DNA of 64,000 nucleotides, taken from positions 591,032 to 655,031 of the forward strand of contig MU004182.1 in assembly GCA_010093605.1 (NCBI GenBank), read 5' to 3'. Positions 36,692 to 64,000 of this stretch are shown piece by piece. The position numbers and the translations under genes were made by a program. Position 1 is the first letter of the stretch, and each line of letters starts with the position of its first letter. This stretch comes from Lophium mytilinum. Its lineage: Eukaryota > Ascomycota > Dothideomycetes > Mytilinidiales > Mytilinidiaceae. The notes beneath the pieces are model-generated. The model made no database searches. It had not been told where the DNA came from and worked only from the letters and a program-made list of their open reading frames with translations.

Positions 36692-38696
36692 CTACCACGT
36701 GACCTTGGAAAGAATTTCTGCATCGCCGGCGTAAGCATCCTGCTGCCCCTCAGTTCGGATTATCTCTTCGTATTTGGGATCGCGCAGGTTGAAGTTAACG
36801 TCAAATGGCTTAAGATGGGCGACAATGCCCGGTATGTATTCCGTTTTAGGCGTGATTTCTTTCCCGTCCGGTCCCACCGGCGAGGTCATGGTGTAAGCAG
36901 CGAGAGTTTGTGCGATGGTCACAAACATTGCACTGTCAGCCAGAAGGCGTCCTGGGCAAATGCGTCGTCCCCAACCGAAAATGTTCTCGGTAGGGTCTGC
37001 CTCCCGTCGGTGGCCGGGGCTGTCGAGGAATCTCTCAGGCCGGAATGTTCGTGGCTCAGGGTATGTAGCCGGGTCGTTGTTATACAGCCTGCAAGACAAA
37101 CCTCAGCCACAAGAAAACAGGATAAGGGCAGCAAACCTGCAAGATACTAATAGTTGGGCAAGGAAGAGGTTTTGAACGGTATAGGAGAAGACAAAACACC
37201 TACCAGGCATTAGGCATCAAAGTGGCACCTTTGGGTATAAGATTGCCCCTGTAGATGATGTCTTCATCTGCCCTGTGAGGTAAGGCTATTGGGCCTGCCG
37301 TGTGCCAACGCATAGTTTCTAGAACCATCGCGTTTAGGTAGGGAAGTTCGTCACGATCAGAAAGAAGCGGAAGACGATCACGACCGATGACACGGTCGAT
37401 TTCCTCTTGACCTTTTCGTTGCACCTCAGGGAAGAGTAACATGGCAAGCAGAAACCCTTTCAGCGAAGCAACGGTCTGTTTAAGTACAATTAGTGGCGAG
37501 ATTTGCGTGAGGAGTGGGTGAGTTGCGTGTGCATACCGTGTCAGCACCAGCAAGATACATCCCCATTGCAGTCCACGCCACATCGCTGTGTAGCTCATTG
37601 TCGTCAAGAAGGTCTGACGCATAGGAAGGCACGTGATTGTTTTGTTTCCTCTGGTGTATCGTGAAGGCTAGTGGTTTCTCAATGACTTCGTCCACATGTG
37701 CGTGCACCTCCCGTGCGGCTTTCTTGAACCCGCCTCCGGGAAACCACTCCGGTATGTGGCGCACTATCGGACGGGTGGTTTAGTATTCGCAAAGCCGTCT
37801 TTACACAGGCCAAGATACTTACTAAATGGAAAGAAATCGACCAGCCACTTTCCGGGCAAGGTACTGTACACAAACCAATCGAGAGCAGATTCGGACAGAG
37901 AGACCAGTGGGTCAATTTCTTCGGGCAAGATGGAATAACCGTAGGTGACTTTTAGAATGAAGGCCCCGGCTTCTCTGATACAAGATCCATCGTTAGTCGT
38001 CATCACTTTAAAGAGGATTTGAGACAAGTTTGTGCCGGCACCTACCTTCGAAGATGTTCAGGATAGTGTTTAGGGTCCTTTAGTAGCCGCAATAAGAACC
38101 GTTGGGACTCTAGTTCTTGCAATGGGTGGAATTTTGCGACCGCAATCTTCGAGCCTAGCACCTTCGCCATAGCTTTACGGTACTGCCGGAAAAGCCTTCT
38201 GTCCCTTGTCAAAGCAAGTGACTTCTTCCAACCAGCACTGCGGGAGAAGATTCGTGTCAGCATGAAGTGATCCTTTACCGCTAATATCGCAATGAAGTGG
38301 GGGAAATACAATTCGTATGCAAACACTGATTCCGGCCGAGATGAAGTCTTGGCAGACTCTTTATCCAGGATATCAGTTGCATATTGCTTGTCATTGATGA
38401 GGACAATTGTAGTGCCGAGTATCGTCAAAGAGCTGATTGGGCCTATTCACCCCCTGGTCAGATTCTACTCAGCTTCTGATTGATGAAACGCTCAACGAAC
38501 CGTAAAGCTCCCTGTGCTTTATCCAGGTCAAAAAATCCACAGATCCTTCCGGTGGAAGATCATAGAGGTTTCCCACTATTGGGAGTCCTTTTGGACCTGG
38601 TGGTAGAGGGAGAGACCTGGGCTTGGTTTGTGATCTCCATAAAAGATAAAGGCCGATAATCGCGACAGCAAGGCTGGCCGTTGACGCAAAACCCAT
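36692..38696 (-). CDS. Cytochrome P450 monooxygenase, membrane-anchored
   Basis: Six exons on the minus strand, 38696-38501, 38442-38046, 37974-37823, 37763-37537, 37475-37204 and 37088-36692, give 546 residues, normal for fungal microsomal P450s. An N-terminal helix (TASLAVAIIGLYLLW) anchors it in the ER, followed by the proline hinge LPLPPGPKGLPIVGN. The oxygen-binding I-helix motif AGADT is at 320-324, the ExxR motif (ETMR) at 377-380, PERF near 432-435, and the haem loop FGWGRRICPGR with Cys459. It needs a cytochrome P450 reductase, not encoded here. It is divergent from the neighbouring flavoprotein gene (746-bp shared promoter). A hydroxylation step on the cluster substrate is inferred. 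The first intron has an unusual GTTCGT donor; the last is 115 bp. Confidence 0.9.
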
Positions 38697-39442
38697 GATT
38701 GCTGAGTGTGAGAGTGAGAAGGAGTGCTCTCGCAGCCCGACAGCACTTATGGAAATGTGGTGTGATATGAACTGCTAACCCGGGGATAATCTGGGGTAGC
38801 GGGGCCTTCGATTTTGTCGCTTATCGCTGTGGCTTTAACACCAAATGCTCGCCATCCACCTATATCCTCCCTTCATACTATTGAACTCCTGGGCTTTCTA
38901 TGTTCCGAGGTGTCAGGTTGAGGTGGGAGTCTTCGGCAAATCCTAAAGCTATGACGCGGGGTGAATTGATATCACACATATGCGAAGTACCATCGTCTTT
39001 GGGTCGGGAGTCTATGAACCGGGAAATTATTTCCAATCAGAGTTCAAGTTTGTCACTAGATTTGACTTATTATTCAAGCACAGAGCTTTGTAGCTTTCGC
39101 CGGCTCGGCAGTCTCTTCTACCCGGACCCCCTGGTACGGATAATTGATGTTCAGTCATGAACGATCGCATTATGTTCAGATGCTGTGATATTTAGGGTTA
39201 CTAGAGGATGTGCAGATGCGGGGAAGAGTCGATCATTTTCCAACCAATTACCAAGTCACTAATCAATATCTATTCGGCACCACCAGCTCGGGAAGTCTTG
39301 CCTCCAGTCTTGCTAGCTTGACGCTACTACCTGTCCTTGCAGTAAGCTGCTATATTGCTGCTTCCTACGCTGGGCTGGACAATCACGACGTACAGCTTCA
39401 ATACACATATATAGGAGAGCTGCCAGATTTCAGAGTGGCACC
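38697..39442. promoter_or_regulatory. Bidirectional promoter of the P450 and flavoprotein 1 genes
   Basis: 746 bp between divergent starts at 38696 (minus) and 39443 (plus). It contains CGGATAA at 39137-39143, the word shared by other promoters of the cluster, and a related GGGATAA at 38783-38789. A TATA-like atacacatatata lies about 30-45 bp before 39443. A 20-base word near 39309 (cttgctagcttgacgctact) differs by one base from one at the edge of the introner-like array near 33373. Confidence 0.6.
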
Positions 39443-40897
39443 ATGAGTTCGACACCACCCCGACGAGTATTGGTGATTGGCAGTGGCGGCGCTGGTGTGG
39501 CAGCAGCACTAGAAGCCAGCCGTCACGGTGCGGAAGTCATCCTGCTTGAATCAAAAGATCAACTTGGCGGCGCGACTTCCATGTCAGGCGGAATTATATA
39601 TGCAGGGGGAACTAAGACGCAGAAGGAGGCCGGAGTCCAGGACACCAAGGAGGAGCTCCTTGCATATCTTTCAGCTATTTGCCAATGGACGGTCAGCCCG
39701 AAGCTTCTGGAGACGACGGTAGAAGGTTGCGTTGATCTTATTCCGTGGCTGGAGGACTTGGGTGTGGTATTCAAACCCGGAGATCTATACGTCGCCGGCA
39801 TGGAGAAGAGTCCTAGAGGTCACAAGCCCAGTGGGGACACTGGTGGGAGAGGTCCAGCTGGAGGTGCCGTTCTCATCAACGCCATTGTGAATGCCTTTGA
39901 CGAACAAAAAGTGCAAGTTCACACAAACACCAGGATCACTGGCATTACGAGGAGTACTGGTGGTGGGATCAAAGTCACCTCAGAGAATGGGGGAAAATTT
40001 CACGGGGACTCAGTTGTCTTTGCATCGGGGGGCTTTGGCGCGAGCGTGAAGAAGCTGGCTCAGTATTATCCAGACGCCGTCAAGCATGAGGGCTGGACTC
40101 GGTACATCGGACCAGACTCGAACCAAGGCGATGCTATTGACCTGGCTCTTTCGGTAGGAGGAACGGTAGTGAACGAGAACACCGGAGGTCTTGACGCCAC
40201 ACCCAACTTTATCCAGGATATCGACCTGTACATGCCTCCGTGGCTGCTATATCTCAACCTTCATGGGCGGCGATTCATCAACGAGATGGCTCCTTATTCT
40301 TTCGGTGGGCCCACCCTTGTGGCACAGCCAGAATCCAGGTGTTGGGCAGTCTTTGACACTCGAGCTCTCACCTATGCCACCGACCACCCTCTCGACCCTG
40401 ATCCGTACGGTCTAGGATTCAAAATGCGCTCGAACTGGGAAGCGGACACGCTTCACAAAGAGATCGCGAGCGGACGCATCATCAAGGCCGATTCGCTTTC
40501 TGAATTGGCCCGCCTAACCGGAATGCCTGTCGAGAGTGTGGAATATACGATTTCGAAGTGGAACCAGGATGCTGTCCATGGAAAGGATCCTGAGTTTGGG
40601 AAGAAGTCCTCCGAAATGATGCCACTCGACCAAGCGCCCTATTACGCTGCTGATGTGCGCTCGCACGTGGTGGGAATCACTTACGCAGGGCTGAAGGTTG
40701 ACGAGGAGGCACGCCTGCTTGATCAGTTCGGTCGGCCCATTCCTCATTTCTATGCTGCTGGTGAAGCTGTTGGTGGTCTCGAAAAGTCAATCTACCCTGG
40801 AGGGGGCTATTCAATCGGTGTAGCACTCTTGTTTGGAAGAATTGCTGGCAAGAACGCAGCATCTGAGGGCAAGCAGCACCTTAACGGACGTCTATGA
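39443..40897 (+). CDS. FAD-dependent fumarate-reductase/KstD-like flavoprotein 1
   Basis: A single-exon 484-residue protein of the FAD_binding_2 superfamily (fumarate reductase, 3-ketosteroid dehydrogenase, flavocytochrome c). The dinucleotide-binding motif VLVIGSGGAGVAAALEAS is at residues 9-26, LGGATSMSGG follows near 42-51, VVFASGGFG near 190, and the C-terminal FAD cap YPGGGYSIGVALLFGRIAG near 453-471. Such enzymes reduce or desaturate C=C bonds next to carbonyls. With three relatives in this cluster, a desaturation or ene-reduction on a cyclic ketone is inferred; the direction is not known. At 484 residues it is shorter than the others. Its last three residues (GRL) resemble but do not match a peroxisomal PTS1. 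Confidence 0.88.
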   Translation: MSSTPPRRVLVIGSGGAGVAAALEASRHGAEVILLESKDQLGGATSMSGGIIYAGGTKTQKEAGVQDTKEELLAYLSAICQWTVSPKLLETTVEGCVDLIPWLEDLGVVFKPGDLYVAGMEKSPRGHKPSGDTGGRGPAGGAVLINAIVNAFDEQKVQVHTNTRITGITRSTGGGIKVTSENGGKFHGDSVVFASGGFGASVKKLAQYYPDAVKHEGWTRYIGPDSNQGDAIDLALSVGGTVVNENTGGLDATPNFIQDIDLYMPPWLLYLNLHGRRFINEMAPYSFGGPTLVAQPESRCWAVFDTRALTYATDHPLDPDPYGLGFKMRSNWEADTLHKEIASGRIIKADSLSELARLTGMPVESVEYTISKWNQDAVHGKDPEFGKKSSEMMPLDQAPYYAADVRSHVVGITYAGLKVDEEARLLDQFGRPIPHFYAAGEAVGGLEKSIYPGGGYSIGVALLFGRIAGKNAASEGKQHLNGRL

Positions 40898-41253: not shown

Positions 41254-42481
41254 TTAATACGTAGTTGTATTGACCGTAAAGCCACTAGTGAATACGAGTC
41301 AGTATGTTAGTGTCAAAGATGGACCGTGGGAAACTCACCCATCGACGACAAGATTTTGACCATTGACAAGGCTCATTTGGTTCGAGGACAACAACGCAAC
41401 TGCGTCACCGATCTCCTGTGGTTGCCCCGTTCGACCTTGGCGGGCCTCGAACATCTTCCATGCCTCGAAAACCTGGGGATCTGATTTGACTATTGGCTCG
41501 GCGATTTTTGTCAAGATGAAACCTGGCGATAGCGAATTGACTCTTATTCCATACTGTCGAGCTTCTAATGCTGCCTTCAAAGGTGGGGGTTGGAACGTTA
41601 GCACCTTTTCCCCCATAGCTGTAACAAGGCAAGTGTACAAGAGAATCAGGGATATGCACTTACAGCCTTAGTAAGACCAGCAACAGCATGCTTTGACGCT
41701 GTATATACGCCAGTCCCAGCCATAGCTTGAATCGAATTCACCGAAGCGCAGTTCACGATGGAACCCCTAACGGCCACGCGTCCAGCTTCCCTGGATCAGA
41801 ACCAGATGTATTAGCACAATGAAGAAAAGGATCGTCGATGAGGTTGTAGATGTTTTGCTCTTACCATTCGATAGGGTCTTGTTTCATCATCTGCAACAGC
41901 TGATGTTTTGTGCTAATGAACACCCCTGTCGTGTTGACGGCCATTACTTTTTCCCACTCTTCCACACTGATCTCTGAAATAGGTTTATGTGGGCCGCCCA
42001 CTCCTGCGAAGTTGCTGGGTGTCAGTCAGTCACGTGTCGCATTAAACTAGGTCAGTCCCGTACGCTGTGTAGTCAATACGTCCAAACTCTGCGACCGTTT
42101 TAGCAATGGCGCTCTCGAAATCCTTCTCGTCTGTGACATTGGCTTTGATGGGCAAACATTTGACCTGTCACAGCGTCCAGTTTCTCGTAAGCAAGCTATG
42201 CAAGAAACACAGAACATTCATCAAATTCTGCTAAAACTTGCCTGGTTTCCCTGAGATTCGACTTCCGTCTTCGCGCTTTCCATGGTTTCATCATCCTGGA
42301 TGTCAACGATCACAACACCTCTTGCCCCTGATTTCGCAAAGGACACAGCAATTGCGAGCCCCAGGCCACGTCCACCACCTGTTACGAAGGCAACTCCCGG
42401 CAAAAGCGAGGATGATTGGTGTGTTGACGCCTTTGAAAAAAGTCAGAACTTGAGATACTGCAAAAGGGAGCTACTTACCAT
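41254..42481 (-). CDS. Classical short-chain dehydrogenase/reductase (SDR 1)
   Basis: Seven exons on the minus strand, 42481-42479, 42430-42242, 42164-42064, 42014-41865, 41790-41664, 41574-41339 and 41284-41254, give 278 residues. Exon 1 is only the ATG; it is followed by a 48-bp GTAAGT intron, and the next exon opens in frame with residues ASTHQSSS. Intron 2 has a GC-AG donor (CAG then GCAAGT). The Rossmann motif is VTGGGRGLG, the catalytic Ser lies in NCASVNS and the YxxxK motif in VYTASKHAV; the end VDGGFTVN is typical of the family and is reached only by splicing the last intron. It should oxidise a secondary alcohol or reduce a ketone with NAD(P). Divergent from flavoprotein 2 across a 559-bp promoter. 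Confidence 0.85.
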
Positions 42482-43040: not shown

Positions 43041-44693
43041 ATGAGTTGGGATAGCGAATATGATATCATCTGTGTTGGGTCCGGGGTTGGGGGTCTATCG
43101 GCAGCCTTGACAGGCGCACAGCAGGGTGCTAGTGTCCTTGTACTGGATAAATTTCACCTTATTGGCGGAGTGTCGGCGTTGTCTTCGGGTCAACTTTGGC
43201 CAGGTCCAACCCATCTTTCCAAGGCAGAAGGAATTGAAGACAATGACAGCGACGCACAAGCTTACATCAACCATCTCTCACAAGGCTTTTCTGATCCAGA
43301 CTTACGGGAGTCCTATCTCGCCCAATGTCGGGGGGCGATCAAGTACTTCACCGACACCATTGGCTTGGAGCTGCAAGTGATCAAAGATCTGCCCGATTAC
43401 TACTACCCAGCGGTGAAGGGCTCTGCTCCTCAGGGGCGTTTTCTCGAAATCAAACCTTTTCCAGCAACAAAACTTCCTGGGGAATGGGCCTCCAAGATCT
43501 TAACATCTCCATATGGCGACGGTTTCAGCTACGTAACCGGGAATGAATTTGTATCAATGCAGTTGAAAGGCGGAGAGCATGTCGGCACAGTCCTCCAGCG
43601 CCATGTCAAAGCAGACGAACGGACTTCCGGGGCAGGCCTAGCAGCCGCACAGGTATATGCCGCTTTACAGCGCGGAGTCAAGATTCAACCATCGACCGAG
43701 GTGGTTGACCTTGTTGTCGAAGGGGGGAGGATTACAGGAGTGATAGCACGCGATGCCTCCTCCTCCTCCACAAAACGCATTCGGGCTCGACTCGGTGTTC
43801 TTCTTGCGACTGGAGGTTATGATCTCCAGCCCAACATGGTACGCGGCTTTGACAACCTGATCAACGCCGGCAATATGACGATACCCACTATCACAGGAGA
43901 TCATCTTACTTTGGCAGCCAAAGTAGGCGCTGTTCCATATCCAGCTCATCCCTCAGCCTTGACTGCGATCTTTGTCGGATACCAAATTCCTGGTGAGATT
44001 ATTTACGGTAAACCAACCTGGCGGTTACTTCTCCCTGGAGCGCCACACTCATTCATTGTCAACTCGCGAGGTAATCGCTTCGCCAATGATTCCTTTTACC
44101 CCGATGTCTCGGCCAAAGCCGGACGCTACGATGGACAAGAACAGGGTTTGGTGAACTGGCCGGCATGGCTTGTCTTCGACCATAACTTTGTTGAAAAATA
44201 CAATCTGCTACCAGCCTACCCAGGCCAGCCATTACCTCAGGGAATCGCTGTGAGCTCAGACACGCTCCGCGGTCTGGCCGAAGTGGCAGAGATCGATGCC
44301 GACGGGCTTTTGAGCACAGCAGAACGATTCAACGGCTTCTGCAAAACCGGGGTAGATGAAGACTTCGGACGTGGATCTCTGCCATGGGGCACGATCATGA
44401 CTGGCGATTACAGCCTCCCCCATCCTAGCTTCGCCGAGCTAGCGAAGGCGCCATTCTATGCAGTCAAGCTTCATCGTGTTACCGTGGGTGTCCCAACCGC
44501 GGGTTTGCCCACCAACGGCGACGGGAGTGTCATCAGTGCGGCTGGCCATGTTGTCCCCGGCCTTTACGCCACCGGTAATTCTGCAGCGTACCGCGACTGG
44601 GGAGCTGGATATAATAGCGGGGTTGCGAATATGCGTGGAATGCTTTACGGTTATAAAGCATCCTTACATATGGTTAAAGAAGCAGGTCTGTAG
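43041..44693 (+). CDS. FAD-dependent KstD-like flavoprotein 2
   Basis: A single-exon 550-residue FAD_binding_2 protein. The FAD motif DIICVGSGVGGLSAAL is at residues 8-23, then GGVSALSSGQLWPGP, a central TGGYDLQPNMV, and the C-terminal GLYATGNSAAYRDWGAGYNS. It is about half identical by eye to the gene at the right edge (62546), sharing LSSG.LWPGP, LELQVI, DYYYP/DYYHP, TSPYG..FSYVTG, TITGDH, NWPAWLVFD and YPGQPLP. The two are clearly paralogs from duplication within the cluster. Residues 50-64 suggest the 3-ketosteroid-dehydrogenase branch rather than succinate dehydrogenase. The upstream ATG at 43041 gives an N-terminus matching the paralog. Confidence 0.87.
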   Translation: MSWDSEYDIICVGSGVGGLSAALTGAQQGASVLVLDKFHLIGGVSALSSGQLWPGPTHLSKAEGIEDNDSDAQAYINHLSQGFSDPDLRESYLAQCRGAIKYFTDTIGLELQVIKDLPDYYYPAVKGSAPQGRFLEIKPFPATKLPGEWASKILTSPYGDGFSYVTGNEFVSMQLKGGEHVGTVLQRHVKADERTSGAGLAAAQVYAALQRGVKIQPSTEVVDLVVEGGRITGVIARDASSSSTKRIRARLGVLLATGGYDLQPNMVRGFDNLINAGNMTIPTITGDHLTLAAKVGAVPYPAHPSALTAIFVGYQIPGEIIYGKPTWRLLLPGAPHSFIVNSRGNRFANDSFYPDVSAKAGRYDGQEQGLVNWPAWLVFDHNFVEKYNLLPAYPGQPLPQGIAVSSDTLRGLAEVAEIDADGLLSTAERFNGFCKTGVDEDFGRGSLPWGTIMTGDYSLPHPSFAELAKAPFYAVKLHRVTVGVPTAGLPTNGDGSVISAAGHVVPGLYATGNSAAYRDWGAGYNSGVANMRGMLYGYKASLHMVKEAGL

Positions 44694-44804: not shown

Positions 44805-44837
44805 CCCCCCCCCCCCCCCCCCCCCNNNNNNNNNNCC
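44805..44837. other. Poly-C run at an assembly gap (10 N)
   Basis: A run of 21 C at 44805-44825 leads into 10 N (44826-44835) and two further C. The gap size is probably a placeholder. It lies between flavoprotein 2 and the epoxide hydrolase gene, outside any coding region I call. Confidence 0.95.
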
Positions 44838-45188
44838 AGAGAAACAATATGTAAAATTTATGTCTATGCCAGGCTCTACGTGCGTGAGTCGTTATGACTG
44901 GTTGAATTTATCCGCGCTAGGCGGGAGAAGAAAAATGGCAACGATAACTTCTCCCTGGGAATTGCAAGTTGAGCCTACAGACAATTTCATGCAAGCTTGG
45001 AACTCGATAACGATATCCGGGTAGTTCGATGCATTGATAAACGGAAGGAAGCTGTTCTGCCGAGGCCTGGGAGACCAGAGTAGTATAAAGCCGCCCATGG
45101 CGCCCTCGAGAGGGGTACGAATACCCTTCTACTCAGGTTCAGTACGCACGTGCAGTGTAAACAGAAAGATTTTCCTCATTAACTAATC
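44838..45188 (+). promoter_or_regulatory. Upstream region of the epoxide hydrolase gene
   Basis: Contains the cluster word as TTATCCG at 44908-44914, about 275 bp before the start codon, and a TATA-like agtataaag near 45081. Completeness is uncertain because the assembly gap borders it. Confidence 0.5.
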
Positions 45189-46524
45189 ATGCCAACTCCT
45201 GTACCATTCAAAATTGCAGTACCTGAAGAGAAGCTTCGTATCTTGCATCAGAAACTTTCCCTGACTGAATTGCCGGATGAAGTACCACTCAAGAAGCCTC
45301 GAAGTCGCGGCGCGCCTCTCCGAGATGTCAAAAATCTTGTTGATTATTGGCTGCATTCCTTCGACTGGCGAGCGCAAGAGAGCAAACTCAACCAGTTTCC
45401 TCAATTCACCACCGACATAGACGTGGACAGATTCGGCACATATAACGTTCATTTCATCCATCAAAGAAGCGCCGTCCCGAATGCGATCCCATTGATCTTC
45501 CTTCATGGCTGGCCTGGCAGTTTTATCGAAGTCACCAAAATTCTCCCCGAGTTGATCCAAGGGGGCCCAAATTTCCCAGCCTTCCACGTCGTGGCCCCGA
45601 GCCTCATTGACTATGGCTTCTCCCAGGGAAATACAAAAGTGAGTAGTATTGACGTCTAGCATGTTGTTGGACTGCAACCTAAAATCACTCAAGGAAGGAT
45701 TCAACCTCGATCAACACGCAGAAGCATACCACAAGCTGATGCTAAGTCTTGGATATTCTGAATATGGTAAGTGACACTCTAGCCTATTATTCATACTTGC
45801 GTTATGCTAATAAGAGTACGCAACAGTGGCTCAGGGTGGCGACATTGGTAATTTCCTGACCAGGTTTCTAGCTCTCAAGTATCCCGAATCCTGCAAAGCC
45901 CATCATACGAACATGCCGACGCCGAATCCACCGGATCCATCCAAGCACGCAGACCTCATCGCTAAAATTGAGGCTGAAGGCGGCCTGAGCGAGGAAGACC
46001 GAAATCGGTTGGCATCCACCCAAGAACACCAGGCCGACGGAATGGGGTACTCGACGGAGCACATGACGCGGCCACAAACCATCGGATACAGTCTGACTGA
46101 CAGCCCGGTGGGCTTGCTTTCATGGATTTACGAGAAGTTAGTGGACTGGGCAGCAGATTATCCATGGACCGCTGATGAAGTCTTGACCTGGGTCTCGATT
46201 TATCGTTTCTCACGCGCAGGTTCTGCTGCTCCTCAACGCATCTACTATGACATGATGCATCGGGAACCCATGTCACTCGTTGACGTGACGGCACAGTATA
46301 TCGATGTGCCTTTGGGTACTTCGCACTTCAAAAAGGACCTTTTCCGCCTTCCATCACGCTGGGATGCTACTCTTGGTCCGATCGCTTTTCAGGCGGAGCA
46401 TGACAAGGGTGGCCATTTTGCTGCATGGGAGTGCCCAAAAGAGTTAGTCAAGGACCTACGTGACATGTTTGGCAAAGAGAGTCCAATTCATGGCTGCGTG
46501 ACTGGGCAGAGTGGCTTTACATAA
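45189..46524 (+). CDS. Microsomal-type epoxide hydrolase (alpha/beta hydrolase with EHN domain)
   Basis: Three exons, 45189-45638, 45694-45766 and 45827-46524, give 406 residues. Residues 1-95 form the epoxide-hydrolase N-terminal (EHN) domain, the rest an alpha/beta hydrolase. The oxyanion loop is HGWPG at 106-110, the nucleophile Asp180 sits in QGGDIG (formed across intron 2), and the catalytic His is in KGGHFAAWE near 371. A lid tyrosine is likely in the YSTEHMTRPQT region. The enzyme adds water to epoxides to give trans-diols. Most relatives read GGDWG at the nucleophile; here Trp is Ile. In this cluster it could open an epoxide made by the P450, or hydrolyse a related cyclic intermediate; both are inference. 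Confidence 0.9.
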
Positions 46525-53434: not shown

Positions 53435-54332
53435 CAGTGTGCACATAGAGCAGTATCGTTGAATCAACTATTCTTTCCGCCACACTTTTCTATTGTATTG
53501 TCAAGCTTGGAGCTATGAGGTCGTCTAGTAGCCAATGGTTTATCTTTCCAAGGTAGCCCAGTTCGAAGTGGGGAGTGAAAAAAGTTACATCGAGAGAGTC
53601 TTAGCTCAGGATGCCAGATTATCATCCTGGCGAGGCAAAGTGAAATTGATCGACATCCCTAGTCATAATAGTGAAGAAGTAGGCGCGAGCAGTTCTTGAC
53701 GTGCAATAGGTATAAGTGTCGCCCACGTGGGAAAGCGCGATTACGCAGGCTACATCTACAATAGAATAGTGCGGGTCTCTTGGCATGGCGTTGATCGCTC
53801 GAACCTGTGCTCTCGTGCAGTAGAGACGCCGTGGATATTGATTCCCATTACTCTCTTCCATAGCTCAATTGTCGCTTCGAGAACATGAGGAGCATTTCTC
53901 GAACTTGTTGCTCGTGTAAGTCTTGCTACGTTCGCGGAAACGTGTACTGGACCGTCTTTGGACCTGGATGATCTTGGTCGAGGGGCGTTGCCGCTAGGAA
54001 ATTGCATGTGATTTGCTACATCTCGTCAGTTCTGTTAAATTAAGCTACACCGTTCTCTTTACTTGGACGCGAGCCAAAAAATTCGGATAAGCCCGGAATA
54101 CCGAGGATTTATCCGGCAGCCTCGTGGCTCCTCGCCAACCTCTCACAGTGACGGATAAAGTTCTATGTAACAAGGAGGTCCCGGGCGAACAAAAACCACT
54201 GCGATATTCTATAGAGTACAAAACCTGTCAGTCGCACAAACCGAAGAAACCATAGCTCCAAGTCCATACCTCCAGAACGCAACACTATCGTGGAACAAAA
54301 ATCTTTCAATTTCACAACCCAATCAGCCCACA
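53435..54332 (+). promoter_or_regulatory. Upstream region of the beta-diketone hydrolase-like gene, three CGGATAA words
   Basis: 898 bp. CGGATAA at 54084-54090 and TTATCCG at 54109-54115 form an inverted pair with an 18-bp gap; a third copy lies at 54152-54158. All are 175-250 bp before the ATG at 54333. The pair is in the CGG-outward inverted arrangement that zinc-cluster dimers can use. The leftmost part has short minus-strand frames that I do not believe. Confidence 0.6.
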
Positions 54333-55649: not shown

Positions 55650-56793
55650 CTAAGAGCTTGCGTATAGTTTTTGAAGCACGTCCTTCACCGTCAACGGCTT
55701 AATCTCCGGAAACTCTGCGTTCAGATCCAGACTTCCTTGTTCTGGGTGCAAATTGAACGCTCCTCCATCAAACCATAGACCGAACACCGCGAAAACGAAC
55801 TGGAGTTGCTCCTTGGGGAAATATGGGTAGACTGGGACATGTGCAGGAAGCTCCGTAATCTGTCCCTTCTGAAGTGACTCAATTGAGTCGTACTGGACGT
55901 TGAACTTGACCCCTAGATTATGGCAACAGCTATTAATAAAGGCATCACCCAGGATCTGGAATGGATTCTTCAAGGGCTCTTTCTGGCTTACCTTTGGTCT
56001 TCTCCGCCAGAGCAACGAAATCATTCCAAGTGATTTTGTCACCAATCGTGTAGCTATCAGGCTTCCACTTGGCAATGTCGAGGAGCTTGGAGACATAGCG
56101 AGCGACATCTGTCGTGTGGGTGAATGCGACGGGAGTATTTCCCTCACCCGGGATACCAGCGGTGTTGTTGTTGAGATCGAGCACTATAGTAGTGGGCTGA
56201 AGAAACGACTCTATCTTCGGTATTCCGAAGTAGTCCAAGAAGAAGCCACAGTTGACTCGGGTGTGTTCAAGGGTGGACTTCTTGAGCTTGGACAGCACCT
56301 CAAGTTTCAAGCCGGCTGGTGGAAACAGCTGTCCCTGTCTAACAGCAAAGGCTTCATGAGCACAGGCGGCGTCACTTCACCATAGAGGAAAAAGGTGGCA
56401 AAAGGGCACTCACTCTTCCGTATACGCTATTCCCCAGGAGCTTGGTATGAATCTCTTTGTGTACGAAGAGGCCTCAGCGGCCGAGACCAAGTTGATCTCA
56501 GCTTCGTTGGAGGTGAGCACAGCAAGAGTCGAGATAACAGTCTCGATGCCGTGGGATTTGAGTACATCTTCCAAAGATGCTGTATCCGTATAGTCGACTT
56601 GTACTACAGGAGCGCCTTGTACACTTTCCGCCGACGACTGTGCATTTTATCAGTGCGCCGAACCATGTCTTATCAGGATAGCATTCTATACCTTTCTGCT
56701 CAAGATCACAACCTTTTTCCCATCTGCAACGAGAGCCTGGACAATGGCTCGTCCGATTCCACCAGTGCCACCAGCCACCGCAATGGTCGCCAT
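55650..56793 (-). CDS. NmrA-like NAD(P)-binding protein (atypical SDR)
   Basis: Four exons on the minus strand, 56793-56692, 56637-56414, 56338-55992 and 55912-55650, give 311 residues. The N-terminus IAVAGGTGGIGRAIVQAL is the nucleotide-binding motif of NmrA/isoflavone-reductase-like atypical SDRs, followed by VVQVDYTD and TVISTLAV. RFIPSSWG is the family's second signature, and VAFTHTTDVARYV its third. No classical YxxxK is expected. Relatives are phenylcoumaran benzylic ether reductase-like reductases or redox sensors; here a reductase of a cluster intermediate is plausible but unproven. The intron 2 acceptor must be the first AG (GCTGTTAG) to keep frame. Unusually, it faces a 1.8-kb region before BVMO 3. 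Confidence 0.82.
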
Positions 56794-58597
56794 TTCCGCT
56801 TTGTTTTCTAACTGATCGAGGATGAAATATCTGTATCTCTTTCTCTCACGCTTTCGTTAGTGACTTTGAGTAGGTACTTTCCGAGAGAGGGCGTTTAAAG
56901 CTGCAGTAAATATGGACTTGTTGGCAAGTGAGCAAAATGGCTAGCCTATGGTGTGATTTGCAATACACTCTGTGCCGTTCGAATCTTTTCCTACGCTCGC
57001 CGGCGAATGCTGGGTGCGTCAAGCACCCGCGCGGCCATTTCAGGGTTTCGGGTCGGAAGACACTGTAAAAACCCGTTTGGTGGACCGTATGGCCAGCAAT
57101 GGCGGATGATCATCGTATCACGTGAGTACCACTCCAGTCGCTGCAAGCGCACATGCTAGAGTTGCTGACCCAGATTCTTTTCCCATATGCAGTACCACAG
57201 AAGTGTCACACATAGAAGCTAGTTGAAATCGCGTAACTGGCCAGCCTGATCAGAGTTCTTGGTGTTATAATCTCTTCATCACTCCGACGCATCAACATGC
57301 GTAATATCTTCTTCTTGACGAAAGTCAGTTCCATCGTCCGTGCCGTACTTGGCGTTGAAACGGAGACTTTCAAGCGTTTCAAGTTTTCGTGGATGTATTC
57401 GTCCAATGTACTGACCTCTTCGCCAGAGTGGTAAGTGAGTGTGAGCGATGCTCGTAACCACGACGAAGGACCTGAAAGAGGCTCTCGATGCCGCACTTGA
57501 TGCGTTCAAAACCTAAAGTCAGATTCCACTCGGAAGGAAGGCGTAAATGCACTGGAACAGTTCTCATGCTTGGGTATTTTGTATTTGTGGTTTGCCTACG
57601 ACTCAGCCGGGACTGGCCTGGAAACCTCATTTAACTCCTTTCATAAAGTTCCCGGAAACAAGATATACCTCAAGATTCGCTGATAGTGAAATCAATCGTG
57701 AGTTTGAAGCTACCTAAAAGCAAGTCGAAATGCACCAACGAGAGATCTCTACACTAACGCCAATACGATCGGTGCCGCTTTCACAGATCTCCCTATAAGC
57801 TCTCCTGGGGATCATAGTCACGCCGTCACCTTTCACTCACGCTCTATGCTGTCCATACAACCGTGGATAGATATGATTGAAGCCATGAAGCGTGTTAATG
57901 CCTCCTTGATGGCCCTTGGTGCGAGCGTCTGGTGCAAGGACATAAAACGAGCGAATGGGAAGGCCAGTCAATTGAATGCAGGATACTTTTTCATTAATCG
58001 CGCGGAAACGCTGAAGATTCGTGCTCCCTTTGGCGAGTTCAAAACAATCAAAGCTCATGGCAGCGAATAACCCAATTTTTGGGGAAACAGAGCCTAGACG
58101 AGATTGCGAAGATCGATAACGAGCTTAGGTTTTTCCAAGCTGGACGAGAGAAAGTCAAGAGTGACCTTGCGCGTACTCCTAGCTGGCGCTGTGAGTTCTT
58201 GATTGGGAACTGAGTAGCTGTACCAATTTTTTCCGAACAATCCGTTCATGTTCGTCCATCCGGCTCGATAGGCGCAATGCCGTGCCGAGAAATCTGACCC
58301 TTGTCCACCACTGGCATCGTCTTCGCAACAGCTCATCCGGCTTCGGCACATGTTCCGGCAACTTGCGTTACATCTTGCTGACCAGTGGATGACAAGGTGG
58401 CACCCCGATCTGGTCTCTCCTAGCGTCCCATATGCACTCCGGTCTTACAGTGAAAGGTACTCCGGAGGAAGTTGCATGCAACACTGATAAAACCTCTCAG
58501 GGTGACATTACTACCAGCCTAGAGTTCTGCCACCTGCCTGCTTTCTGGTCTTGTAAGATTGATTCTAGTCGGTATCCATCTTCCTTCTATCAAGAAA
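56794..58597. promoter_or_regulatory. Long divergent intergenic region between NmrA-like and BVMO 3 genes
   Basis: 1.8 kb without a supported gene, the longest gap inside the enzyme cluster. Several minus-strand frames with ATG starts (57630-57379, 57496-57206, 58058-57837) are short and overlap in different frames, which may be remains of a decayed gene, but I recognise no family. No CGGATAA word is seen. The ends must hold the two promoters. Confidence 0.45.
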
Positions 58598-60850
58598 ATG
58601 GGCTCCATTCCTCCCAGTGAGCTGCGAGTGCCGTCTAATCCGGGGGAGCGGGCCATCAATGACTATCGCCCGATCAAGGCCATATGCATTGGTGCTGGTA
58701 TGAGTGGTATAACTGCAGGCTGCATGCTTCCACAGAAAATCCCTAATTTAGAGCTCGTCATATACGAGAAGAACGACGATGTCGGCGGGGGGTGGTACGA
58801 GAACCAGTGAGTCGAAAGCCAAAAATGGTCATGGCTATTCTTGACTGACCAGACACTCAGTTATCCTGGAGTACAGCCTGGTAAGAGCGACATCGTCCCA
58901 CACGCGTTCAGTTCGCGTATCGAGCATTGACTGATGCGAGCAAGATTTGACGCCGCATACGTACCAATACACATTTGCCAGCAATCCTCGCTGGAGCCGG
59001 TTCTACCCTCCTGGACGCGAATTCGAGCATTATCTGAAGGTGGTAGCGAAGAGATTTGGGGTTTATGATCGGACCAAGTTCCGCCACAAGTTTTTGACCG
59101 CGAGATGGATCGAGGATGATGGGCAATGGGAGGTGGAGGTTCTTCGTCTCGACGACAACGTCGTGAGTCAAATCAATCTCCAGTCTCAACGCTTGTCCAA
59201 AGCAGCAGACTGATGTTTCTTTCTCCATCTAGGTGGTCAGAGACCGGGCAGAGGTTCTCATCAGGTGTATGGGTCTGGTGAATGACTGGAGATTTCCCGA
59301 CATCCCAGGGCGACAAGATTACCAGGGCAAAATGATACACACGGCTAGATGGGATGACTCGTATGATGTCACTGGAAAGCGGGTGGCAGTCATCGGCTAT
59401 GGTGCCACTGGGGTTCAGATCATGCCGGCAATCCAGCCCTTAGTCAAGTCTGTCGACCACTACGTACGCGGTCCATTCTGGATAGCGCCGGCCGGCGGAA
59501 CGGCGATGGAGGAAATTCTCGAACGTGGAGAGCGGTTGAACTGTAAGTGTTTCCGCCCCCCTTATGGTCGTCGCGCAGCCTTCGATTGACCAAATGTGAA
59601 AAGTCGATCATCCGGCCGAGGAAATCGAGAAATTCTCCGAAAAGCCACTCACGTACTTGACCTATCGCAAAAAGATCGAACATCTGTGTAACGGGTATCA
59701 AGCCGGGTTGATGAGGGACACTGAGGCTCATGCGCAGCTCCACGCCATAATTGAGGCCAACATGAAAGCGACGTTGGCGCCAAAAGAGGGCTATTTTGAA
59801 CTCCTAAAACCTGAATACGAGGTCGGTTGTCGCCGGTTGGTCATGGGTCAGCGTTGGATGGAAGCGCTCGTTCAACCCAACGCCACTCTCTTCAAATGCG
59901 ATATTGCTCGCTTCACCAAGGAGGGAATCGAGCACCCGGATGGAACCATTCGAGAATATGATGCCATCATATGTGCGACCGGCTTTGACACGTAAGCAAA
60001 ACCACCAAAGACTAGCAAGCACGCTTTTCATTACGTTCATGAGCACGGCTGACAAGGATTTGCAAAGTAAACTCGACAACGCGAATACTCCGATTCTTGG
60101 ACAAGGTGGCATCACACTCGCCGAACAATGGGATCCCGAACCCGTCGCGTATCTCTCTGTTGCGGTGCCAAAGTTCCCCAACATGTTCCAGCTATTCGGC
60201 CCCAATTCGGCCCCAGTGGCTGGCTCAATCTGCCATACAATGGAGGGCGCTTGTGGCTTTGTTATTAAATCAATTTTGAAGCTCCAGCAAGAATATCTCA
60301 AGTCCATTGTCGTCAGGTTAGTTGGCCGTAGTTGTTTTCTGCATTCCTTTCTCTTTCCGCCGCCTTCTCTACTACTACCTTGTGGAACTGTTTCTAACGA
60401 GAGTGCGATTGTAGCCCAAGAGCGGCGCAAGACTGGATGAACCAGGTCGACTACTGGACCAGTAAAACTGTCATTTCAGGGACGGTGAGTAACGCAATGC
60501 GAAGCGTATTTCATTATCTGTCTAGTATGTGGAATGATGCCTGCTTCTAACACAAAGGATTTTGCCAGTGTCGTACATGGTTCAAGCGGAACATCGAGAA
60601 AGGTCGATCCATTATCAACTGGCCAGGCTCGGCCATGCATGCCTACCGTGCATGGAGCAACCCTCGATGGGAAGATTTTGAATACGAGTCGTGGCTGCCA
60701 GAAGGCCAATCACTGCGTTGGATGGGGAACGGCATGACCTACTCTGAACAGCATGGAACTGATACCACCGATTACATGTCATTCACCGATGAAGCGACTG
60801 TTCTTACGGAAGAAGACTTCAAGGCTGTTGAGGACAAACTCACCAAGTGA
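58598..60850 (+). CDS. Type I Baeyer-Villiger monooxygenase (BVMO 3)
   Basis: Eight exons, 58598-58806, 58861-58880, 58945-59162, 59233-59542, 59604-59991, 60068-60316, 60415-60484 and 60569-60850, give 581 residues. Exon 2 is a 20-base micro-exon coding the centre of NHYPGVQPD. FAD motif CIGAGMSGITAG near 29-40; GGGWYENHYPG; fingerprint YQGKMIHTARWD with Tyr for the usual Phe; NADPH motif VIGYGATGVQIMP; ATGFDT at the exon 5/6 junction. It should form esters or lactones from ketones. Compared with BVMO 2 it lacks the N-terminal extension and is a different subfamily, so the two may act on different ketones of one pathway. The start at 58598 has the usual short polar leader; an upstream in-frame ATT/ATG-free stretch to 58559 is not used. 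Confidence 0.85.
58861..58880 (+). other. 20-base micro-exon of BVMO 3
   Basis: Flanked by CTCAG acceptor (58859-58860) and GTAAGAG donor (58881). It supplies the conserved YPGV of the BVMO FAD domain; skipping it would shift the frame. Micro-exons this small are uncommon in filamentous fungi. Confidence 0.75.
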
Positions 60851-61350: not shown

Positions 61351-61995
61351 TTACTCTTCCTGCAGCAACTTCATGAGTGGGCCAGAGTCCTAGACATTGT
61401 TGAGATTGCTTAGCTACCCGGCCAATTTTGCAAAGGAGAAGATAAGGAAGAATGGAGTGCTGAACATACCCCCCAGACTTGGAAATGTTTCATCTTGAGG
61501 TTGGACGATTTGATATCCTCAAATATGATTCGACTGAGAAAATTCCCTTCCAGGTGTTTGCCGTTGACAAGGCCCATTTTGGCGAGGCCAATGTTCAAAA
61601 GATCAGAAGCATCCTCAGTACAGGTATACACCTTGAGAATCTTATGCTGTCTCTCTGAAACAACTTTCCAGGCCGCGATGCGCGAGACCTTGATTTCTGT
61701 GAGCCATACAAATTTAGCACTGCTGCATAAACATCAACGTTCTTTGGAAGAAGAGACTGAGACCCAAAAGGTAATGTGAAAAATAAATCTGCACACCTTC
61801 CGATCCCACATATGTTCCTCCTGATAGTATAAAGGTTGCCGTGGGTGTGAAGAAGTCAGCTGCCAGCTTGGCCCCAGCATCGGGGGTATTGTTATCCATG
61901 ACCACGAAGAAATCATCGAGGAACTTCTTGACAGTCGAGGGCACGGTGGTCGACGAGGGCCACTCCGTGTCTGAGGTGGCGAAATCGGTCGTCAT
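61351..61995 (-). CDS. SnoaL-like / NTF2-fold protein
   Basis: Three exons on the minus strand, 61995-61797, 61696-61470 and 61389-61351, give 154 residues, normal for the family. The N-terminal helix VKKFLDDFFVVMDN and FFTPTATFILSGGTYVG are typical of the SnoaL/NTF2-like cone, with IAAWKVVSERQHKILKVYT and MKHFQVWGDSGPLMKLL after splicing. The fold includes polyketide cyclases, limonene-1,2-epoxide hydrolase and ketosteroid isomerase, but many fungal members are non-catalytic. A role in isomerising or hydrolysing a cyclic intermediate is possible; I do not see a decisive active site. Divergent from flavoprotein 4. The ATG at 61995 is preferred to an in-frame GTG at 62046. Confidence 0.78.
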
Positions 61996-62545
61996 ACTGA
62001 CAGCAGTCACTATATAAGCAGACCAGTAGGTGCGAGACGTAGACACAAGTATACGAGAGAAAGTAACGCTATTGCAGCGAATATGAATATATCTTTGTAG
62101 CGTACCGCACGTCTAGGGTTCTACGCGGTCTATTTATCGCTAAAATGACATCAGTAGCTCCCTGGCGACGAGCTCCCAAAAAATCAGTGGTCCTCATTGA
62201 TGTTTCAGCTTCCCGCCCACCTTCCTTGGGGGGTACCGGAACGGGACTCTAATATGTCATATGAGAAAGAGGGAAGAGCAGACTGCGACAATCCGGATAA
62301 ACTTGCGTCCCGTAGATCCCAACGAGGCTGGAAAGCCTGAAGTTGCTGATCTCGGCATTCCTTCTCTGAGTTCGCGCTGTCACAGGATGGATGCCCCGGA
62401 TACGTCTCTTCGTTTGTTCATTGGGCTAGGCTCCTTCCAATCCCCTCAATCTAGATTATAATATGAAATGATCGCCCCAGGCCCAGCCCCGTCCCAACCG
62501 AAATTTTGATCCGTCTCTTTTCGCACTCCAAACAGTAACTGGACC
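61996..62545. promoter_or_regulatory. Bidirectional promoter of the SnoaL-like and flavoprotein 4 genes
   Basis: 550 bp between starts at 61995 (minus) and 62546 (plus). CGGATAA at 62294-62300; a TATA-like tatataag lies about 20-25 bp inside the minus-strand side (near 62011). Also a short palindrome-like ccttggggggtacc near 62221. Confidence 0.55.
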
Positions 62546-64000
62546 ATGGCGACCCAATACAGCGATGAGTATGATGTCGTCGTTGCCGGATCTGGAATTG
62601 GTGGTCTTTCAGCCGCCATCACCGCCGCCGAGCGAGGTGCGCGTGTTCTCGTAGTAGAAAAGCTCGATAAGCTGGGAGGGGTCACCGCATTGTCGTCTGG
62701 AGTATTATGGCCAGGACCCAATTCGCTTTCAGAGAGCTTGGGCTTTGAAGACTCAGTTGAAGAAGCCCAAGCATATATGAACACGATTACGCGCGGCTTG
62801 GCCAAGGAGGACCTGAAGCTGGGATATCTCGCTAGGAGTCGTGAAGCCATTCAATACTTTACCGACAAGATTGGGGTTGAATTACAGGTCATTCGAGGCG
62901 TGCCAGACTATTATCACCCGTCTGTCCAAGGTTCCAAGGTCGAGGGGCGCTTTCTGGAAAGCAAGCCTTTTTCTGGCAAGCGCTTGGGGATGTGGACTGA
63001 CAAGGTGCTCACCTCACCATATGGACCCGCCTTCAGCTATGTCACAGGCACAGAATGGGCTGCGTCGCAGACCGGTAAGGCGAACATCGTCGAGAGCCTT
63101 CAACAGCACGTCCAGGAAGATGAACGCTGTGGGGGCGCTGGATTGTCGGCCGCCCTCGTCTACGCCGCGCTCCAGCACAACGTGGAGTTTCGGACTTCGA
63201 CCGCGCTCGCGGATTTGATTGTGGAAGATGGAAGAGTTGTAGGAGTGCTTATTGAACCAGTGGCGTCCTCGTCAGGGGGGGATGGGGTTACGAATGACAC
63301 TACGAAAGGAACTGGGAATCATGAAAAAGCACTTCGGCTGCAAGTACGGCAAGGAGTAGTTATGGCAATAGGGGGTTACGATTGGCGAAAGGATCTAGTA
63401 CAGGCATTTGACGGACTGAAGGAGTGTTCCACCATGGTGCCACCTACAATCACCGGAGACCACATCGTCATGGCATCAAAGGTCGGTGCTATTCCGATCC
63501 CGGCACGACTTCCAGGCCAAAGTCCTATATTCGTCGGGTATCGCGTTCCAGGAGAGGTCATCTTTGGGTATCCGTCATCACGTTTATTACTGGCAGGCGC
63601 TCCCCACAGCATTATCGTGAATCGAAAGGGGCTCAGATTTGCGAACGACGGCTTTTATCCCCACGTTGTCGAGCAGGTTACCCGATATGGCAGCCAGATG
63701 ACACACATGCCCAATTGGCCCGCCTGGCTGGTGTTCGACCAGAGCATGCTCGACAAGTATGGTTTGGCACCGACCTATCCTGGACAGCCACTTCCCGAAG
63801 GCCTTGCCATACAGGCCGATAGCATCAAAGAGCTTGCTGAGCGCGCTGGCATTGACTCAACCGGTCTGAGCGAAACTGTGGACCGATACAACGGCTACTG
63901 TGAAACAGCCACGGACCCTGAATTTGGCCGCGGCACGTATCCCTGGTCTGCAATTATGGTGGGCGACTATCGATTGAGGAACCCCAACATGGCAGAGCTT
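62546..64000 (+). CDS. FAD-dependent KstD-like flavoprotein 4 (partial, runs off the window)
   Basis: An uninterrupted frame from the ATG at 62546 to the window end (485 codons, no stop reached), so the gene is cut by the edge; by its paralog at 43041 it should need about 60-80 more codons. FAD motif YDVVVAGSGIGGLSAAI near 9-25, then GGVTALSSGVLWPGP, DKIGVELQVI, TSPYGPAFSYVTG, TITGDHIVMA, GAPHSIIVN and NWPAWLVFD. About half of residues match flavoprotein 2 by eye. A low-complexity insert (SSSGGDGVTNDTTKG near residue 242-256) is absent from the paralog. Function as for the other cluster flavoproteins: desaturation or ene-reduction on a cyclic carbonyl compound is inferred. Confidence 0.86.
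   Translation, partial: MATQYSDEYDVVVAGSGIGGLSAAITAAERGARVLVVEKLDKLGGVTALSSGVLWPGPNSLSESLGFEDSVEEAQAYMNTITRGLAKEDLKLGYLARSREAIQYFTDKIGVELQVIRGVPDYYHPSVQGSKVEGRFLESKPFSGKRLGMWTDKVLTSPYGPAFSYVTGTEWAASQTGKANIVESLQQHVQEDERCGGAGLSAALVYAALQHNVEFRTSTALADLIVEDGRVVGVLIEPVASSSGGDGVTNDTTKGTGNHEKALRLQVRQGVVMAIGGYDWRKDLVQAFDGLKECSTMVPPTITGDHIVMASKVGAIPIPARLPGQSPIFVGYRVPGEVIFGYPSSRLLLAGAPHSIIVNRKGLRFANDGFYPHVVEQVTRYGSQMTHMPNWPAWLVFDQSMLDKYGLAPTYPGQPLPEGLAIQADSIKELAERAGIDSTGLSETVDRYNGYCETATDPEFGRGTYPWSAIMVGDYRLRNPNMAEL

Follow-up and report, generated by a model that had tools for sequence, protein, structure and literature searches.

On balance, this locus is probably a catabolic gene cluster under common regulation, with which the fungus would degrade a bulky polycyclic alicyclic compound. 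The best candidates for that compound are terpenoids and steroid-like molecules, whose rings would be opened by three routes (lactone, beta-diketone and extradiol), perhaps with aromatisation. What the sequence itself shows is gene content, intact motifs, the clustering of a promoter motif, partial synteny and the bacterial affinity of two flavoproteins (KstD_B/D). Genes for the degradation of multi-ring compounds are well known in bacteria and poorly known in fungi. With a compact gene set linked to a regulator, the way in which a fungus might open more than one ring of such a molecule can be tested directly. The set further includes candidate fungal BVMOs for bulky ketones, candidate ring desaturases and a candidate beta-diketone hydrolase, and it is a likely example of a fungal cluster that has acquired desaturase genes from bacteria.

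Extent and gene content of the cluster

Thirteen intact gene models without internal stops were obtained in 36692-64258, as numbered from the start of the window (the whole 64,000-nucleotide stretch of Lophium mytilinum DNA analysed), in agreement with the thirteen consecutive genes of a first-pass annotation. SDR1 and KstD_D are re-modelled genes, and the SDR1 junction was also re-examined. The models are as follows.

36692..38696, minus strand: P450_1, six predicted exons, 546 aa, PF00067 E 9e-61
39443..40897, plus strand: KstD_A, FAD_binding_2 flavoprotein, 484 aa, PY and YPGGG motifs kept
41335..42481, minus strand: SDR1, PF13561 (adh_short_C2) E 5e-51, intron 41663-41575, first exon unsure
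43041..44693, plus strand: KstD_B, KstD-like flavoprotein, 550 aa, active-site motifs altered
45189..46524, plus strand: EH1, epoxide hydrolase, EHN domain E 3e-38, three predicted exons, 406 aa
47299..49284, plus strand: BVMO1, 661 aa, closest solved structure 5mq6
49955..51809, plus strand: KstD_C, 593 aa, catalytic motifs kept, nearest true KstD of those tested
52511..53434, plus strand: SDR2, 307 aa, adh_short match
54333..55163, plus strand: crotonase, 6-oxocamphor hydrolase type, 276 aa, ECH_1 domain
55650..57038, minus strand: NmrA-type NAD(P)-binding protein, PF05368 E 2e-17, five predicted exons, first unsure
58598..60737, plus strand: BVMO2, cyclohexanone-monooxygenase-like, signature YQGKMIHTARW, final exons of model unsure
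61410..61995, minus strand: small protein, NTF2/SnoaL fold unconfirmed, gene model with no Pfam match at 1e-3 and NTF2 at E 0.11
62546..64258 (crossing the window edge at 64000), plus strand: KstD_D, FAD_binding_2 protein and KstD_B paralogue (53% identical)

Family matches were found for the P450, the four KstD-like flavoproteins, two SDRs, NmrA protein, epoxide hydrolase, two BVMOs and crotonase named earlier, while the SnoaL-like label of the small protein was not borne out. The apparent right end near 64000 is only the edge of the window. Six more cluster genes follow in the next 14 kb, outside the 64-kb window. They encode two P450s, EH2 (a second epoxide hydrolase), a LigB dioxygenase, an FAH-family enzyme and a Zn2Cys6 regulator. 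The whole cluster thus spans ~36.7-78.8 kb (window numbering) and has 19 genes, 17 of which encode enzymes, the other two being the small unconfirmed gene and the regulator gene. The regulator, none of which had been in view in the first-pass annotation, lies ~12-14 kb right of the window edge.

That annotation had also pointed beyond 64000 for a synthase or a transporter. No match to PF00109, PF19086 or PF00668, the families covered by our profile search for backbone synthases, occurs on the contig between C2:487671 and C2:2155630, so for these three families no backbone synthase lies close to the cluster. Reading of the cluster's ORFs revealed neither a CoA ligase nor a dedicated esterase, and no transporter; in the search for MFS transporters only 9 of 544 candidates were scored, too few to bear on this point. 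Rfam (gathering level) and tRNA scans of the window found nothing.

Four FAD_binding_2 genes fall within 24.9 kb (P(>=4) = 1.4e-7, or ~2e-4 for any such stretch genome-wide), a conservative figure in which all 75 genome candidates are counted as genes; 14 of the 75 were scored, giving 14 match rows and ~12 genes after merging (11 used in the calculation). A chance neighbourhood of unrelated oxidoreductases, families that are abundant in this genome (e.g. 40 FMO-like match rows, exons counted), is scarcely credible in view of this density, the shared CGGATAAA motif and the gene pairs that have stayed close together in further fungi.

Candidate desaturases and ring-opening enzymes

All four KstD-like proteins possess an FAD_binding_2 domain (profile search). 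The catalytic residues of KstD are Tyr119, Tyr318, Tyr487 and Gly491. KstD_C keeps the equivalents of all four, KstD_A has lost the first Tyr equivalent but retains the motifs at 318 and 487/491, and KstD_B and KstD_D keep the first Tyr and lack the Tyr318 and YPGxG equivalents. Owing to these losses KstD_A, KstD_B and KstD_D are not classed as KstD, and the activity of KstD_B and KstD_D, lacking Tyr318 and YPG equivalents, is unsure. KstD_A may be a reductase, since fumarate and urocanate reductases are its closest solved relatives. The best KstD equivalog score among KstD_A, KstD_B and KstD_C is 367 bits (KstD_C), below the NCBIfam cut-off of 789. The fungal clade of KstD_B/D is placed amid bacterial homologues, which suggests an origin by gene transfer from bacteria.

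Further down the NCBIfam rankings, the second-best model of KstD_B is 4-oxocyclohexanecarboxylate 2-dehydrogenase and the fourth-best of KstD_C is 4-oxocyclohex-2-ene-1-carboxylate 5-dehydrogenase, with scores far below the curated cut-offs (262 vs 1000 and 395 vs 900). Both model names denote ring-desaturating steps, which fits the favoured polycyclic reading. These matches would also suit a cluster acting on a less complex alicyclic acid, for instance a cyclohexanecarboxylate, in which a P450, an SDR and the paired desaturases aromatise the ring and LigB and FAH-family enzymes cleave it. Given such low scores, and with nothing to do for either BVMO, the crotonase or the pair of epoxide hydrolases, we regard this as very unlikely.

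The crotonase best matches the ALR4455 beta-diketone hydrolase (E 4e-62) and 6-oxocamphor hydrolase (OCH, E 4e-53), the first enoyl-CoA hydratase following at 1e-16, and by sequence search is thus closer to OCH/ALR4455 than to CoA-thioester crotonases. Its residues H126, H149, D159 and E249 align with H122, H145, D154 and E244, which have known roles in OCH, and these four are conserved in 120, 120, 120 and 118 of the best 120 homologues listed. By type and residues it is a candidate beta-diketone hydrolase, sharing family and residues with OCH and ALR4455 and differing from them in being fungal. There is one match in the genome at E 1e-8. Among the best 120 matches listed, many of them without a name, no crotonase is named Mytilinidion or Capronia.

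Two further candidates lie between the window edge and the regulator. The clustered dioxygenase belongs to the LigB family rather than to HsaC/TesB and is nearest to 4,5-DOPA dioxygenases. The best solved relative of the FAH-family enzyme is 2-hydroxyhepta-2,4-diene-1,7-dioate isomerase; among NCBIfam models it scores highest with a sugar-acid hydrolase (93 bits vs a cut-off of 500) and next with HpaG. Both the isomerase and HpaG act after extradiol cleavage. Ring opening had previously been proposed by lactone and beta-diketone cleavage; intact enzyme candidates are present for both, and LigB with the FAH-family enzyme adds a putative third route.

BVMO1 matches solved BVMOs over most of its length, above all 5mq6 (E 2e-154, 519 bits, residues 15-635), presumably the fungal polycyclic ketone monooxygenase of Thermothelomyces, and BVMO2, likewise over most of its length, matches a solved cyclohexanone MO at E 1e-51. 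The type I BVMO signature is FxGxxxHxxxW, and its first residue is altered in both (AGGHIFHSARW in BVMO1, YQGKMIHTARW in BVMO2); BVMO1 differs from 5mq6 in having A-x-G instead of F-x-G. Among NCBIfam models BVMO1 scores highest (460 bits vs a cut-off of 1100) with that of a biosynthetic BVMO, pentalenolactone D synthase, and some relatives bear this name or ausC.

Such names would accord with a biosynthetic cluster whose enzymes modify a terpenoid, for example a sterol or triterpene, that is synthesised from another part of the genome. Furanosteroid (demethoxyviridin) formation is such a case: a lanosterol-derived skeleton is described there as being reworked by P450s and dehydrogenases together with a BVMO and an esterase (PMC5943271, available part). 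The vid cluster, like ours, has 19 genes with P450s, a BVMO and dehydrogenases; no cyclase is listed among vidA to vidQ of its gene table, and lanosterol-derived pathways are not bound to a clustered cyclase according to the same portion of that paper, therefore the missing terpene synthase is not enough on its own to exclude biosynthesis (PMC5943271). The vid cluster differs, however, in being biosynthetic and in having six P450s and two transporters, whereas no transporter was seen here by ORF reading, and vidA to vidQ as tabulated in the available text include no LigB, FAH or OCH-type gene (PMC5943271). LigB, FAH-family and beta-diketone hydrolase functions are mostly ring-destroying, and we judge a biosynthetic role unlikely.

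A shared promoter motif and conservation in other genomes

The following copies of an 8-bp motif were located in the window.

39137..39144, plus strand: CGGATAAT site, P450_1/KstD_A intergenic
44907..44914, minus strand: CGGATAAA site upstream of EH1
46779..46961 (46779 plus, 46954 minus): two CGGATAAA sites upstream of BVMO1
49666..49673, minus strand: CGGATAAA site upstream of KstD_C
52232..52239, plus strand: CGGGTAAT variant site upstream of SDR2
54108..54159 (54108 minus, 54152 plus): two CGGATAAA sites upstream of the crotonase
62294..62301, plus strand: CGGATAAA site, SnoaL/KstD_D intergenic

Nine of the genome's 563 copies of CGGATAAA occur in 33.8 kb, against 0.44 expected (P 1.2e-9). 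The motif CGGNTAAW was picked after viewing the list from a dyad scan; this P was corrected for all 8-mers (4e-5 after multiplication). All ten CGGATAAW sites in 36.7-78.8 kb are outside gene models. CGGNTAAW occurs twice outside promoters in the rest of the cluster (51595, 76946) and is absent from four of the 14 promoter regions (SDR1/KstD_B, NmrA/BVMO2, FAH and EH2/P450_3). The genome-wide count is stronger evidence than the 8-mer scan, which placed poly-C/G tracts above CGGNTAAW and gave the latter a p of 7e-7 vs 5e-7 for the best of 80 shuffled sets (5% level 1e-5). In the promoter dyad scan the best dyads were no better than 10 shuffled sets (z 4.4 vs null maxima of 4.0-4.8), and a paired-site pattern had 13 matches in the genome with none in the cluster. 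The clustering of the motif ties the parts of the cluster together and points to shared regulation, and a Zn2Cys6 regulator, its predicted partner, is encoded within the same cluster. The earlier catabolic reading is thereby supported in outline, as a single cluster that is probably under common control and looks suited to degrading a ring compound.

Two cluster proteins are 89% identical to Mytilinidion resinicola. Relatives of BVMO1 are present in Mytilinidion and Capronia. Conserved clustering in relatives was found for two gene pairs only, as judged from locus tags and contig listing data: A1O3_00982 and A1O3_00984 are close by in Capronia, whose KstD_D relative is listed on a separate contig, and the BVMO1 and KstD_D relatives of Mytilinidion are apparently on one contig.

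KstD relatives also occur in Mytilinidion resinicola and Claussenomyces, and a 49% relative of BVMO1 in Seiridium cardinale, three fungi with a presumed link to conifers or resin. This distribution could reflect a detoxification cluster that oxidises and opens a toxic plant ring compound (a resin diterpenoid or monoterpene) without feeding growth carbon. Detoxification genes of fungi are often clustered, and a part in the detoxification of monoterpenes is ascribed to two BVMOs of Grosmannia in the accessible part of a review (PMC8120277). However, 17 enzymes and three ring-opening chemistries are more than detoxification needs, and we consider it quite improbable.

A bacterial counterpart cluster was rejected as a candidate. 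When each of the 19 cluster proteins was searched against 38 prokaryotic loci with KstD_B relatives (3.6-21.6 kb each; E 1e-10, query coverage of 40% or more), no multi-gene cluster was shared, neither a BVMO nor an OCH-like crotonase was found in any of the 38 at these thresholds, and only SDR1-like matches recurred. Single matches included an EH1 relative in L023 (39% over 392 aa), an SDR2 match in L033, weak crotonase-fold matches (26–32%) in L041 and L052, and weak KstD_C matches in L049 and L054. Read by eye, the ORFs of L019 include P450, GMC-type, aldehyde dehydrogenase and GST-like genes, and those of L023 GMC-type and aldehyde dehydrogenase genes. Plasmid searches returned prokaryotic homologues only, at <60% identity.

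Proposed pathway and comparison with known systems

The reactions of the favoured catabolic pathway are inferred, as are the sequence in which they occur, the match between regulator and sites, and the substrate. The P450s would hydroxylate ring carbons, possibly forming epoxides for EH1 and EH2 to hydrolyse, and the SDRs and NmrA protein would set ketones. Rings beside a ketone could then be desaturated by KstD_C, by the variant pair KstD_B/D and perhaps by KstD_A, far enough to aromatise one ring, which as a catechol would be opened by the LigB dioxygenase and passed to the FAH-family enzyme. Other rings would be opened via a lactone by BVMO1 and BVMO2 (Baeyer-Villiger), and a 1,3-diketone ring by retro-Claisen cleavage by the crotonase. 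The regulator probably acts at the CGGATAAA sites and on its own gene. In its strongest form, which we hold only tentatively and think somewhat unlikely, this would be a complete fungal pathway that takes apart a polycyclic terpenoid or steroid nucleus in the bacterial manner (desaturate, aromatise, meta-cleave), with P450s replacing Rieske oxygenases, at least one desaturase family from sphingomonad-like bacteria, and a single regulator controlling three ways of opening a ring.

Some bacterial steroid-degrading strains use BVMOs and have ring hydrolases of the crotonase fold. The 9,10-seco steroid pathway resembles our proposal in KstD-type desaturation and extradiol opening of an aromatised ring, but here there is no PF19298 (KshA_C) match in the genome, the dioxygenase is LigB-type, and P450s take over from Rieske oxygenases. 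Using bacterial markers, a genome survey of 2016 reported no steroid-degrading fungi, as far as its available text goes (PMC4810484).

The dit resin-acid cluster of Pseudomonas abietaniphila shares a ring-cleavage dioxygenase (DitC), a putative isomerase (DitH) and a putative dehydrogenase (DitI), all three required for growth on abietanes in the portion available (PMC13063091), and the P450 DitQ (likewise from partial texts, PMC6891630, PMC10710418). It differs in its ring-hydroxylating dioxygenase DitA, and those portions name neither a set of KstDs nor a pair of BVMOs nor a crotonase of OCH type.

Our literature searches found no described fungal cluster with this gene set, as the first-pass annotation had stated. 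Limonene utilisation by Grosmannia clavigera is likewise fungal terpenoid breakdown with BVMOs, but concerns a monoterpene, and the accessible part of the 2021 review describes neither a set of KstDs nor a beta-diketone hydrolase nor an extradiol step, while calling the Grosmannia enzymes the only characterised fungal terpenoid-detoxification enzymes (PMC8120277). According to the available text of another source, mycelial fungi are some of the organisms that most commonly degrade resin acids completely (PMC6891630).

Extent and gene content of the cluster

The 43.18 Mb genome comprises 24 contigs, with the window at C2:591032-655031, to which we added 50 kb of flanking DNA rightward and 10 kb leftward. 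Gene models came from a simple splice-aware finder whose training set was the long ORFs of the region, and all gene ends are predicted. The introns in these models, together with Zn2Cys6 and Fungal_trans domains, identify the DNA as fungal. A run of ten N lies at 44826-44835 (window numbering, as for all positions without a contig prefix), upstream of the epoxide hydrolase gene EH1. The first 9500 nt are strongly AT-rich (GC 26–28% up to 8 kb, 33% at 8–10 kb), perhaps as in RIP-affected fungal repeats, and adjoin a region of 50–60% GC.

The first-pass annotation had described thirteen consecutive genes as a catabolic cluster for an alicyclic compound. All thirteen were recovered, intact as predicted models, and Pfam or solved structures backed the enzyme families of twelve; the proposed SnoaL-like gene had only an NTF2 match at E 0.11. 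The interpretation is supported in part, the gene observation being confirmed and extended beyond the window, as genes of like kind continue past the flavoprotein gene KstD_D, which ends at 64258. The search to the right also located a regulator.

Predicted genes to the right of KstD_D (contig C2; window numbering in brackets)
655755-657550 (64724-66519), minus strand, cytochrome P450 (P450_2)
658589-659583 (67558-68552), minus strand, FAH-family enzyme
660253-661107 (69222-70076), minus strand, LigB dioxygenase
661748-663266 (70717-72235), minus strand, epoxide hydrolase (EH2), one junction unsure
663372-665273 (72341-74242), plus strand, cytochrome P450 (P450_3)
666939-669019 (75908-77988), minus strand, regulator with Zn2Cys6 finger and Fungal_trans domain, start outside the model

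The HGWPG motif of EH2 is absent from the gene-finder model and legible in the DNA at 71700-71900, hence the model junction, and not the gene itself, is probably wrong. Right of the regulator no gene was predicted until about 80.3 kb, past which ORFs were read by eye, one of them reductase-like. At 81967-82971, some 4 kb beyond the regulator, a single-exon model of 334 aa appears to encode an NAD(P)-dependent reductase and has no CGGATAAW site nearby. At the left edge, beyond two intervening genes of no assigned family, lies another BVMO-like gene with five predicted exons (28880-30842), which contains one CGGGTAAW match; no CGGATAAW site occurs between 5.7 and 39.1 kb.

A promoter motif shared across the cluster

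The motif CGGNTAAW occurs 13 times in the cluster promoter regions (10.2 kb), against two occurrences in the remaining 31.9 kb or so of the cluster and five in the flanks (62 kb), while 200 shufflings of the promoters gave a mean of 2.2 and a maximum of 7. Its density in cluster promoters is 1.27 per kb, compared with 0.095 per kb genome-wide (4096 sites). The exact form CGGATAAA has 563 genomic occurrences, nine of which fall within C2:635938-669731 (0.44 expected, P = 1.2e-9, or 3.8e-5 after multiplying by all 8-mers). On C1 and C2, where the positions of all 89 sites were listed, the next densest separate window of equal size holds four.

Sites of the motif and its variants in cluster promoters
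CGGATAAA: upstream of EH1, the Baeyer-Villiger monooxygenase gene BVMO1, KstD_C, crotonase, SnoaL/KstD_D, P450_2 (66704) and the regulator (78700)
CGGTTAAW: 78829, also upstream of the regulator
Variant sites: P450_1/KstD_A, SDR2 and LigB
CGGTTAAA: 70207 and 70280, upstream of LigB

CGGNTAAW is absent from four of the 14 promoter regions, and scanning these promoters for dyads gave no significant result. CGG triplets are common binding targets of Zn2Cys6 proteins, and the regulator within the cluster is therefore the natural candidate for these sites; we infer that it binds them and that the genes probably form a single regulon. The sites upstream of its own gene would fit self-regulation.

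Proposed chemistry and comparison with known systems

The crotonase is the most telling gene of the set. Among solved structures it is most closely related to a beta-diketone hydrolase and to 6-oxocamphor hydrolase; in the alignment to a solved relative the residues matching H122, H145, D154 and E244 are conserved (in 120, 120, 120 and 118 of the 120 homologues listed, respectively). It is the sole genome match at E 1e-8. Among the KstD-like flavoproteins, KstD_C has every KstD motif checked, KstD_A has two of three, with reductases as its nearest solved relatives, and KstD_B and KstD_D have the first only. KstD_B and KstD_C come close, with all NCBIfam scores under the cut-off, to enzymes named for two desaturation steps of a 4-oxocyclohexane ring. 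For the FAH enzyme, the closest PDB entry is an isomerase acting after extradiol cleavage, while in NCBIfam a sugar-acid hydrolase model (93 bits) ranks just ahead of HpaG (90 bits). LigB is closest to 4,5-DOPA dioxygenase, its match to HpaD being weak.

With P450s and SDRs acting ahead of them, these KstD, LigB and FAH affinities suggest a route of hydroxylation, oxidation, desaturation, aromatisation and meta-cleavage; BVMO1, BVMO2 and the crotonase would provide two additional ring-opening routes. We infer all these reactions from family membership; as a guess, the substrate may be a conifer resin diterpenoid or a sterol.

The cluster resembles bacterial steroid and resin-acid degradation in its working, yet is not a member of these systems, because a profile search found no KshA_C match in the genome and the clustered LigB is of another family than their ring-cleavage dioxygenase. 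No fungal cluster of like kind was found among open PMC papers, a scope outside which most subscription papers lie.

The main rival is that the cluster is biosynthetic rather than catabolic. The backbone synthase reported as missing was indeed absent nearby for the three families searched (PF00109, PF19086 and PF00668), the closest match being a PKS at C2:486925, about 140 kb leftward. The closest PDB structure to BVMO1 is 5mq6, a polycyclic ketone monooxygenase, and its best NCBIfam model is that of a biosynthetic enzyme, pentalenolactone D synthase. Biosynthesis remains the main rival since, according to the paper on the vid furanosteroid cluster, a clustered cyclase is dispensable for sterol-derived biosynthesis (PMC5943271).

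Other BVMO1-like loci are present at C16:1337968-1339809 (41%) and C2:2016443-2018194 (38%), the latter with three stops within the match, which introns or decay may explain.

Conservation in fungi and origin of KstD_B and KstD_D

Capronia epimyces carries relatives of BVMO1 (A1O3_00982, 65%) and KstD_B (A1O3_00984, 79%), apparently on the same contig and, by locus tag, two genes apart as in the window. Its KstD_D relative is apparently on a different contig, which counts against conserved clustering. In Mytilinidion resinicola, relatives of BVMO1 and KstD_D (89% each) apparently share one contig (listed length 1,991,248). Also against conserved clustering, no crotonase was found under Mytilinidion or Capronia names among the 120 best matches, many of which are nameless.

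A tree of KstD_B and KstD_D was built from 45 rows, namely the two window proteins, 11 fungal-named matches (every one among the 120 listed), four named bacterial proteins and 28 of 38 bacterial loci, ten of these loci and the unnamed metagenome matches being excluded. Under midpoint rooting, with long branches flagged, the 13 fungal rows form a single clade (support 97/96) amid bacterial rows, nearest to sphingomonads. Bacterial transfer followed by duplication in fungi would be the simplest reading of these sequences.

At two sphingomonad loci, L019 and L023, KstD_B relatives adjoin SDR, GMC-like and aldehyde-dehydrogenase-like genes, together with a P450 in L019 and an epoxide hydrolase in L023. 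The L023 protein is near-identical to a protein of the anthraquinone degrader Sphingobium sp. AntQ-1, and the AntQ-1 protein shares 59% identity with KstD_B.
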